Below, piece after piece: positions 18,835 to 22,199 of a stretch of 46,664 nt of DNA. The notes under the pieces were generated by a model. That model made no database searches, was not told the origin of the DNA, and saw only the letters and a program-made list of their open reading frames with translations. A program made the translations under genes and the position numbers. Source of the stretch: Candidatus Zixiibacteriota bacterium (GTDB taxonomy: Bacteria; Zixibacteria; MSB-5A5; RBG-16-43-9); assembly GCA_022865345.1 (NCBI GenBank), contig JALHSU010000045.1, positions 1-46,664 of the forward strand. Reading direction: 5' to 3'. The stretch's first letter is position 1. Every line of letters starts with the position of its first letter.

Positions 18835-19788
18835 GTGAAAGCTAAAGATTCAAAACCTTTTTTTCATATTAGAAAAAACAGCAGGTATGGCTTTATCGAC
18901 AAAACCGGAAAGATGGTTATAAAGCCGGAGTTCGATTACGTAGGTCCTTTTTCTGAAGGGTTAGCAGTAGTCTGGATCGGAGATAAGGAAGGGTATTTAG
19001 ACAAAAAAGGAAAAGTGGTAATCGAGCCCATATTCGATGAGGCTGGAAATTTCTCTGACGGATTTGCCGCAGTCTGGTATCTCGGAAAATGGGGCTATGT
19101 TGACAGGAAAGGCAAATACTTGCTTGCCCCGGTTTTTGACTACGCTGTGGATTTCTCCGAGGGGCTGGCTGCCGTAGAAAGTGACGGGAAATCCGGCTAT
19201 GTCGACAAGAAGGGCAAGCTGGTCATCCCTCAGAAGTTCGATGAAGCTGGAGATTTTTCTGAAGGGTTGGCAAAGGTGATGGTCGGCAAAAAGTGGGGAT
19301 ATATTGACAAGAAGGGTAAGATTGTCATCCAGGAGAAGTTCGACGATGCGGGCGATTTTTCTGAAGAGTTAGCCAGGGTAAACATCGGTGGTGAGCTGCA
19401 TAAAGGCAAAGGAATCGTAATTGGCGGGAAATGGGGTTATATTAATAAGAACGGTGATTCGATTGTCAGTCCAAACTTTGACGAAGCAGGAGAATTTTCC
19501 GAAGGATTGGCAATAGTAAAGAGCGCAAGTAAATGGGGTTACATTGACAAACAGGGGAAGATGGCGATAAGAGCTCAGTTCAGCAATGCTAAAAATTTTT
19601 CCGAAGGACTGGCACCGGTGAGCAAAGGTAACCGATGGGGGTATATCGACCAGAGCGAAAAAGTGGTGATAAATTTCGAATTCGAGAAAGCTGAACCTTT
19701 TTTTGAAGATCTGGCTGAAGTCTGGATAGAAAACAAATACGGTTACATTGATAAGACTGGGAAATATATCTGGAAACCCACGGAGTGA
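18835..19788 (+). CDS. WG-repeat (KWG) protein
   Basis: 317 residues with a GTG start; GGAGGT lies 5 nt upstream. Eight to nine repeats of about 38-40 residues cover the whole protein, each 'KWGYIDKKGK.VI...FD.AGDFSEGLA.V'. This is the WG beta-hairpin repeat family, which is widespread and of largely unknown function, probably for binding. There is no signal peptide or membrane anchor, so a cytoplasmic location is inferred. The fifth repeat carries an insertion of about 10 residues (GGELHKGKGIVI). A TTGACA at 18803 has no convincing -10. Confidence 0.88.
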   Translation: MKAKDSKPFFHIRKNSRYGFIDKTGKMVIKPEFDYVGPFSEGLAVVWIGDKEGYLDKKGKVVIEPIFDEAGNFSDGFAAVWYLGKWGYVDRKGKYLLAPVFDYAVDFSEGLAAVESDGKSGYVDKKGKLVIPQKFDEAGDFSEGLAKVMVGKKWGYIDKKGKIVIQEKFDDAGDFSEELARVNIGGELHKGKGIVIGGKWGYINKNGDSIVSPNFDEAGEFSEGLAIVKSASKWGYIDKQGKMAIRAQFSNAKNFSEGLAPVSKGNRWGYIDQSEKVVINFEFEKAEPFFEDLAEVWIENKYGYIDKTGKYIWKPTE

Positions 19789-19950: not shown

Positions 19951-20499
19951 ATGAGCCCACAGGATTTTACCATACATTACGTCTGCACCAGAGAAGAAGC
20001 AAAGGATCTGGTGACAAAATTTGAGAGATATTGGGTATCCAACTGCGGATGTAGGGAAGGCAGAGGAAAGTGCGATCGCTCGCGGATGGACGTCTGCCTG
20101 ATGTTCCGCGATGACTTTCCACCCACTGGTTCAGGCTTCAGGGAAATTACCCGAAAAGAAGTAGACGAGATTTTACAGGAAGCAGAAGACAAACATCTGG
20201 TAACCAGACCTTTCAGAAATGAAAAGAATATGGCTGAAACCGACGGCATCTGTTTCTGCTGTGATGACTGCTGCGGCTATTTTCTAAACCCGCAGGAAAA
20301 ATGTGACAAGGGAAAGCTGATCGAGAAAACCGACCGGGAAATATGCAACAACTGTGGTGATTGTGCCGATGCTTGCTACTTCAAGGCGAGACAAATGAAT
20401 TCCGAGGAGCTTCTTATAGACCAAGATAAATGTTACGGCTGTGGCTTGTGCCGGGATGTTTGTCCGTTGGAGTGCATTGAGATGGTGCAGAGATCGTAG
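19951..20499 (+). CDS. Cys-rich protein with two C-terminal [4Fe-4S] clusters
   Basis: 182 residues. GGAG precedes the ATG by 5-6 nt. The C-terminal 55 residues are a bacterial ferredoxin-type domain: Cys132, 135, 138, 142 (CNNCGDCADAC) and Cys161, 164, 167, 171 (CYGCGLCRDVC). Residues 30-50 have NCGCREGRGKCDRSRMDVCL, and 100-110 have CFCCDDCCGY. This N-terminal part resembles Cys-rich ferredoxin-like proteins from anaerobes and may bind a further cluster or metal. Likely an electron carrier; its partner is not evident. The TAG stop lies in a GTAGGGG repeat that begins at 20496. Confidence 0.8.
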   Translation: MSPQDFTIHYVCTREEAKDLVTKFERYWVSNCGCREGRGKCDRSRMDVCLMFRDDFPPTGSGFREITRKEVDEILQEAEDKHLVTRPFRNEKNMAETDGICFCCDDCCGYFLNPQEKCDKGKLIEKTDREICNNCGDCADACYFKARQMNSEELLIDQDKCYGCGLCRDVCPLECIEMVQRS

Positions 20500-20538: not shown

Positions 20539-20671
20539 GTAGGGGCACGGCGTGCCGTGCCCCTACCGTACTCCGTAGCAAAAAAGAGAGACGCATCCGA
20601 TGCGTCTCTACGTTTTTAACCTTTCCCTTCCCTCTCCTTTCCTACGGATCCGTTTAGGAAAAAAGGAGAGG
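20539..20671. repeat. Three hairpins between the convergent 4Fe-4S and selenoprotein genes
   Basis: 20539-20566 is a perfect 28-bp palindrome (GTAGGGGCACGGCG arm). 20587-20609 is AGAGACGCAT, 3 nt, ATGCGTCTCT. 20631-20644 (CCTCTCCTTTCCTA) pairs with 20655-20671 (TAGGAA...GGAGAGG) around CGGATCCGTT; this last hairpin begins 7 bp after the stop of the selenoprotein gene and is a plausible terminator. Confidence 0.6.
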
Positions 20672-20678
20672 ATAATAA

Positions 20679-21329
20679 TCAAACCTCAGCCGCTTTCAAC
20701 ACCTCTGCAATAAAACTTTCCTCTGGCAAAGCTCCTTCAAAGCTGTGGGTTTCATTTATTACTACTTTGGGGACTGCATATACGTCATATTTATGCGAAA
20801 GATGTGGGAACTCACCTGCTTCTACCATATCTGCGGTGATAAAGCTGCTCTCTAAAGCTAACATCTGAGCCAGGCCAACTGCCTGGGGACAGTATGGTCA
20901 GGTCAGGGTGACGAAAACCTGAATGTGCACCGGCTTGTTGAGTTTCTGTAATTCCTTCTTGCTTTCTTCCAATAAGCCGGACTCACCTGAGGATACCATC
21001 CTCATAGCTTCCATCAAAGAGGTAAACTCATATCCAGCCGGGATCCCGTAGAATCTTATCCCGTAATCTTTTCCTGTCTCATCACACACTGCAATAGCCG
21101 GGATTTTATCGATCTTATACTCCTCAACCTTGTTCTTATCCAGGGTGAAATTATGTACCTCAACCTTTATCTTATCTGAAAGAGAGGCTATTTCCTCAGC
21201 TAATAGCCGATTTTCATTACAGTATTCGCATTCTATTTCCTGGGTGAAAACAATGAGCTTGACTTCATTCTTCAAACTTTGCAACTCGGTCTGGACATCT
21301 TTTTTAATCTCTTCACTAAGCAAAGCCAC
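20679..21329 (-). CDS. Probable selenoprotein: two-domain glutaredoxin/PDO-like with UPYC motif
   Basis: Read through the in-frame TGA at 20898-20900 as selenocysteine, the product has 216 residues, close to archaeal/bacterial protein disulfide oxidoreductases (about 220-230). Start is GTG with AAGGAGGG upstream. Domain 1 (about 1-115) has Cys34-E-Y-Cys37 and a KIPAIAV cis-Pro loop. Domain 2 has VFVTLT-U144-P-Y-Cys147-PQAV and a YAVPKVVI cis-Pro loop, and ends normally. In relatives the U position is Cys (TCPYC). A SECIS-like hairpin follows the UGA by 11 nt (20870-20886). Expected role: thiol-disulfide exchange in the cytoplasm. Alternative: a nonsense mutation or read error. sel genes are not in the window. 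Confidence 0.82.
20870..20886 (-). promoter_or_regulatory. SECIS-like stem-loop
   Basis: In the mRNA, CCAGGC-AGUUG-GCCUGG: a perfect 6-bp stem with a 5-nt loop that has G at its second position, starting 11 nt after the UGA. CUG below and CAG above can extend the stem after a small internal loop. Size (17 nt) and distance match the minimal SECIS of E. coli fdhF as I recall it. It lies within coding sequence, as bacterial SECIS elements do. Confidence 0.65.
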
Positions 21330-21446: not shown

Positions 21447-22199
21447 CTACGGATTCACCACGACCAGAGTGACCCCAACGACCTCCCTTGCTCCCGCTTC
21501 TTTTAAGACCCTTGCACATTCCTTCAAAGTCGCACCAGTAGTCATAACATCGTCCACCAGGATTACCTTTTTTCCATGAAGGGCTGAATTATCTCGTACC
21601 ACAAAAGCACCTCTCACATTCCTCTCCCTTTCTTCAGGAGAAAGATGGGTCTGATCTTTCGTCTTCTTCTTCCTAATCAGGACCTTCTCTGCTAAGGGCA
21701 CAGAAATAGTTTTGGAGACCTCCTCAGCTAAGATTCTGCTCTGGTTATATCCCCTTTCCCTTTTTCTTGAGGGGTGCAAAGGAACCGGGATAATATAATC
21801 AAAACCTTTTGAAAATTCCTCTTTTTTCAGAATCTCTCCCAATCTCCTGCCAAGATTTTTGCCAATTGAGAATTTCCGGTTATATTTGAAATGATGAATC
21901 AAGGTTTGATAATAAGGGTCAAAAATCCCTAAGGACCTGTTTAAGCCGAGAGATGAAGATTGTGGACATTTTGGACATCTTCTCATCTCCTGGTCCAAAA
22001 AAGAACGGCAAATTGGGCAAAAGGGATGGGGCAGAATGTTAAGACTATCCCAGCAATTCCTGCAGACCAGGTTTTTTGGATAGGTATCGTCTTGCATCTC
22101 ATCTGAAGAGATTGATGAGTTACACAGCAGGCAGTGAGGAGGAAAGACAAAATCTAAAAGAGAATCTTTTAATCCTATAAAAGCATTTAAGAACTCCAT
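21447..22199 (-). CDS. comF: ComF-family phosphoribosyltransferase-like protein
   Basis: 250 residues. The N-terminus has zinc-finger pairs (CLLC, CRNC, CPIC, CPKCP) within residues 20-85, and the C-terminal part is a type I phosphoribosyltransferase fold with VILVDDVMTTGATLKECARVL (the PRPP-binding loop) at about 212-232 and VPLHPSRKRERGYNQS. In Gram-positives and Haemophilus this family (ComFC/GntX) is needed for DNA uptake, acting with ComFA; the enzymatic reaction is unknown. No other competence gene is nearby. GGAAG precedes the ATG. Confidence 0.9.
   Translation of the reverse strand: MEFLNAFIGLKDSLLDFVFPPHCLLCNSSISSDEMQDDTYPKNLVCRNCWDSLNILPHPFCPICRSFLDQEMRRCPKCPQSSSLGLNRSLGIFDPYYQTLIHHFKYNRKFSIGKNLGRRLGEILKKEEFSKGFDYIIPVPLHPSRKRERGYNQSRILAEEVSKTISVPLAEKVLIRKKKTKDQTHLSPEERERNVRGAFVVRDNSALHGKKVILVDDVMTTGATLKECARVLKEAGAREVVGVTLVVVNP

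Follow-up and report, generated by a model that had tools for sequence, protein, structure and literature searches.

In hyperthermophilic archaea, the protein disulfide oxidoreductase (PDO) acts as the reductant of peroxiredoxins. The C-terminal site of the Sulfolobus PDO is fundamental to its thiol-transferase activity, and the chain TrxR-PDO-Bcp is known (PMC7465337). Versions of this enzyme family with selenocysteine (Sec) have been listed in publications for some twenty years: a 2006 survey listed the family in Carboxydothermus hydrogenoformans and Symbiobacterium thermophilum (PMC1794560), and two reviews, of 2022 and 2026, count it among the predicted selenoproteins (PMC9312934, PMC13188914). 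Selenoproteome surveys label it "homolog of AhpF N-terminal domain (Grx-like domain protein)", with a UxxC motif, e.g., ABB15282.1 (PMC13188914, PMC9312934). The corresponding protein family model, TIGR02187 (protein disulfide oxidoreductase), bears the NCBI name PDO_seleno_TRX. Here, we analyse a gene of this family in a Zixibacteria MAG (2.86 Mb, 275 contigs), where it lies on the contig that makes up the window, i.e., the whole stretch of 46,664 nucleotides under analysis (contig C45). A previous annotation made from the letters of the window, hereafter the sequence-only reading, had described it as a probable new selenoprotein. At the level of the family this novelty does not hold: because the family is already in the surveys, the gene is an added member of a known selenoprotein family, and only its occurrence in the Zixibacteria lineage is new. 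Our full-text literature search for Zixibacteria together with selenocysteine found no selenoprotein survey and no earlier report for the phylum. Selenocysteine use is now documented in the Zixibacteria, and the general picture of what selenoproteins are is unchanged by this PDO.

The assignment to the family is clear. The protein scores 288.3 bits against TIGR02187, above the curated cut-off of 185 and across the whole model (model positions 2-209 of 209, residues 6-213), and both of its Trx-fold domains contain a site of the CxxC type (C34-E-Y-C37 and U144-P-Y-C147). The PDOs of Pyrococcus, 1j08 (E 8e-51) and 1a8l (E 2.5e-47), align with it over residues 2-213, nearly the full length. The models of the AhpF N-terminal domain TIGR03143 and TIGR03140 also match, PDO being the best match by far. 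When TGA is translated as U, the frame running from 21329 to 20679 reads ...HIQVFVTLT-U-PYC-PQAV...YAVPKVVI...AAEV-stop, in which YAVPKVVI is the cis-Pro loop, and the GTG start is preceded by AAGGAGGG. There is one in-frame UGA, with no other stop or frameshift inside the gene, and it is followed by 72 sense codons before the frame closes at a regular UGA stop. Homologues from the same genus share this end point, and more distant ones stop a few to a dozen residues away at most, so this last UGA is the true stop. The translation thus bears out what the sequence-only reading had described, namely a UGA at the first Cys of the second CxxC, a CEYC motif in the first domain, and 72 further codons with a normal end. 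Its coordinates for the gene are also correct; the strand, which it had left unstated, is the minus strand (Table 1).

Table 1. Positions of the PDO gene, its functional sites, and the adjacent genes in the window.
Feature	Position	Strand	Remark
Gene of the Sec-containing protein disulfide oxidoreductase (TIGR02187), Sec predicted	20679..21329	minus	216 residues and UGA stop; start GTG at 21329-21327
N-terminal active site Cys-Glu-Tyr-Cys, residues 34-37	21219..21230	minus	from the translation
In-frame UGA; predicted Sec144 at the start of the C-terminal U-P-Y-C	20898..20900	minus	UGA or Cys here in 24/24 homologues
SECIS-like hairpin CCAGGC-AGUUG-GCCUGG	20870..20886	minus	-9.9 kcal/mol; P ~0.003 against synonymous recoding
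4Fe-4S ferredoxin domain protein, convergent neighbour	19951..20499	plus	no sign of a link to the PDO
ComFC-like phosphoribosyltransferase with double zinc ribbon, neighbour	21447..22199	minus	no sign of a functional link to the PDO

The ferredoxin and PDO genes converge on an intergenic region that contains a near-perfect inverted repeat, GTAGGGGCACGGCGTGCCGTGCCCCTAC (20539-20566), directly followed by a second hairpin, agacgcatccgatgcgtct; together they are perhaps a repeat element or terminators. Further along, a plus-strand gene at 18835-19788 encodes a protein built of eight WG repeats.

Standard-code calling at this locus yields only a 143-aa ORF, which is what one expects if the UGA is a real stop that left either a nonsense-mutation pseudogene or a truncated one-domain protein. 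The homologues argue strongly against this. In the genomes searched, 24 of them cover the codon of residue 144: 13, including the gene described here, have TGA, and the remaining 11 have TGT or TGC, i.e., the UGA or Cys that the sequence-only reading had proposed to look for at this site. All 13 TGA codons fall on one identical codon and all come from the phylum, three of them from genomes of the same genus (the separate assemblies G001 and G002, and this one). Over the 71 codons downstream of the UGA, the comparison with G002 shows 16 synonymous and no nonsynonymous changes, and the comparison with G001 shows 17 synonymous and one nonsynonymous change, which shows that this downstream part is translated and that purifying selection acts on it. 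Stops and frameshifts scattered downstream in sister genomes would have spoken for decay; the sister genomes share the UGA and are otherwise undisrupted in this gene. Given this codon-level conservation, a real stop is in practice refuted, and we consider it extremely improbable. Standard gene callers would split the gene, and the Sec reading corrects the gene model. The same comparisons bear on whether the UGA stands for a TGC or TGT that was misread in sequencing or assembly, an explanation that the fragmentation of the MAG into 275 contigs might invite. TGC or TGT in the reads is unlikely given that three separate assemblies from the genus agree on this UGA; ten further genomes beyond G001 and G002 have UGA at the same codon, and a matching hairpin lies downstream of it. 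Hence, we give an error hardly any credence.

This hairpin has a 6-bp stem, and its apical loop, AGUUG (20880-20876), follows the UGA at a distance of 17 nt. As a null model we recoded the same peptide synonymously 2000 times, with weights from the GC3 of the gene, and asked for a stem with the apical loop at the given place; an equally strong stem arose in 0.3% of the recodings for this gene. The recoding value is at most 2.4% in 12 of the 13 Sec genes, and below 1% in most of them, while the stem of the thirteenth (L026) is made mostly of wobble pairs. Of the 11 Cys genes, nine are without such a stem, L023 has a partial one, and L022 has kept it. The six stem pairs are kept in 100% of cells in eight Sec genes (at most 52% with the partner slid) and in 57% of cells in nine Cys genes. 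For covariation in the Sec set, the shuffle control is weak, with 57 of 500 shuffles reaching the observed level, because most changes in the stem are one-sided. A G in the apical loop is a criterion for bacterial SECIS elements (PMC1088965), and the loop is AGUUG here versus GGU in most Sec relatives. Family f19 (L051, L053, L054, and L055) has a different stem at the same place, of up to 8 bp with a GGU triloop; the apical GGU lies at the same distance from the UGA as elsewhere, in another pairing register. The Rfam search of the gene region returned nothing relevant.

The genome also encodes the machinery for selenocysteine. Contig C178 carries, in this order, tRNA-Sec (selC, anticodon UCA), selD, selA, and the beginning of selB, which is cut off by the contig end; a C-terminal piece of SelB lies at the end of contig C240, such that SelB is present only as fragments on two short contigs. 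The four genes that the sequence-only reading had named as markers to be sought in the same genome are thus all detected. SelD (L037, 4732-5763, plus strand) is itself a selenoprotein: its SSG-UGA-AAK reads SSG-U-AAKCSP, the known Sec site of this enzyme. With a SelD that has its own Sec site, the genome probably has at least one selenoprotein besides the PDO. The read-through of UGA in both genes examined, PDO and SelD, could also be produced by a genome-wide reassignment of the codon, e.g., to Trp or Gly, instead of recoding to Sec. This is very hard to sustain, since both sites are known Sec sites (SGUAAK in SelD, UPYC in PDO), UGA also terminates the PDO gene, the neighbouring genes are open under table 11, and selC and selA are in the genome. 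Tested as a bacterial selenoprotein, the PDO therefore presents an in-frame UGA paired with Cys in homologues (13 Sec, 11 Cys), the sel genes (selA, partial selB, selC, and selD), and, shortly after the UGA, a hairpin with a small G-containing apical loop. Together with the purifying selection after the UGA, these lines of evidence strongly support that the protein is a genuine selenoprotein with a predicted Sec144, and hence the central claim of the sequence-only reading that the UGA encodes Sec.

The distribution of Sec and Cys among the homologues provides information on how the site has changed in the phylum. Mapped on the tree of the 24 sequences, Sec and Cys require six changes of state, of which at least four are forced by well-supported branches. 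SelA has a match in 19 of the 19 genomes tested, Cys-type genomes included (18 above the cut-off), and is thus uninformative for telling Sec from Cys versions. The Cys gene L022 (G007; codon at 1915, minus strand) still has the SECIS-like hairpin (P ~0.003), in which a double change from G-C to A-U is common to it and to L026 (G009), a Sec gene of the same genus. Judging from the sequences, L022 likely represents a recent change from Sec to Cys. L026 has an upstream in-frame TAA as well as its weak hairpin, and may be decaying or misassembled. There is about an even chance, in our estimate, that Sec and Cys have interconverted repeatedly within genera of Zixibacteria despite the presence of SelA, with the hairpin decaying after a switch to Cys (one Cys gene retaining it) and, in one family, rebuilt in the other register without a change in the distance of the apical GGU. 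If true, the PDO family would be a small natural experiment on selenoprotein gain and loss. Closely related Sec and Cys genes with the hairpin intact, fossil, or lost are a useful set for the study of Sec/Cys exchange. The plasmid search found only relatives below 60% identity.

The best explanation of the whole, which we hold with very high confidence, is a PDO with a Sec-Pro-Tyr-Cys C-terminal site and a thiol-disulfide role, for which we infer both the incorporation of Sec at UGA144 and the electron partner. SelB with Sec-tRNA would decode the UGA, aided by the hairpin just downstream, and the product, with its two thioredoxin folds, is probably cytosolic. The selenolate of Sec144 would attack substrate disulfides, the resolving Cys147 would then close an intramolecular selenenylsulfide, and a thioredoxin-reductase-like flavoenzyme would probably re-reduce it. 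The genome does have a thioredoxin-reductase-like gene, split into pieces that lie at the ends of contigs C125 and C202. The Sec lies in the C-terminal site, the one that is fundamental in the Sulfolobus PDO. Two Sec homologues have an N-terminal site minus one Cys, GQFC in L026 and CQYY in L056 (G132), with U-P-[YH]-C kept in both; this loss fits a C-terminal site that is the main active site. The enzyme may serve as a general thiol-disulfide reductase/isomerase or, by analogy with the PDO of hyperthermophilic archaea, as a reductant of peroxiredoxins. No reductase or peroxiredoxin partner adjoins the PDO gene among the genes scanned in the window neighbours and the flanks of relatives, the latter containing only unrelated genes; the gene stands alone, and its electron partner is therefore an inferred one. 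A variant of the role, with the Sec reading unchanged, would make the Sec protein an electron carrier within an AhpF/peroxiredoxin system instead of a general PDO/isomerase. The matches to the AhpF N-terminal domain models point this way, as does a Bathyarchaeota relative (L050, 1-2000), which fuses a PDO-like and a thioredoxin-reductase-like domain in an AhpF-like arrangement and has lost the N-terminal CxxC. We regard this carrier role as rather doubtful, given that the gene stands alone without an adjacent reductase or peroxiredoxin and that PDO is by far its best match.

How the Zixibacteria PDO compares with known systems can be summarised on three levels. It shares TIGR02187 over the full length and the UxxC motif with the selenoproteins described as homologues of the AhpF N-terminal domain (ABB15282.1). 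Those belong to another phylum, and the likeness stands at the level of family model and motif. Sec-containing glutaredoxin and thioredoxin, as far as the citation of Kim et al. 2011 and 2015 in PMC13188914 describes them, likewise have Sec in the UxxC of a Trx-like fold but are small, single-domain proteins, unlike the two-domain PDO. Finally, the Pyrococcus PDO (1a8l, 1j08) and the other solved PDOs have, as here, two tandem thioredoxin folds with an active site in each, the second of the CPYC type; the Pyrococcus enzyme comes from a hyperthermophile and has Cys where the Zixibacteria protein has its predicted Sec.
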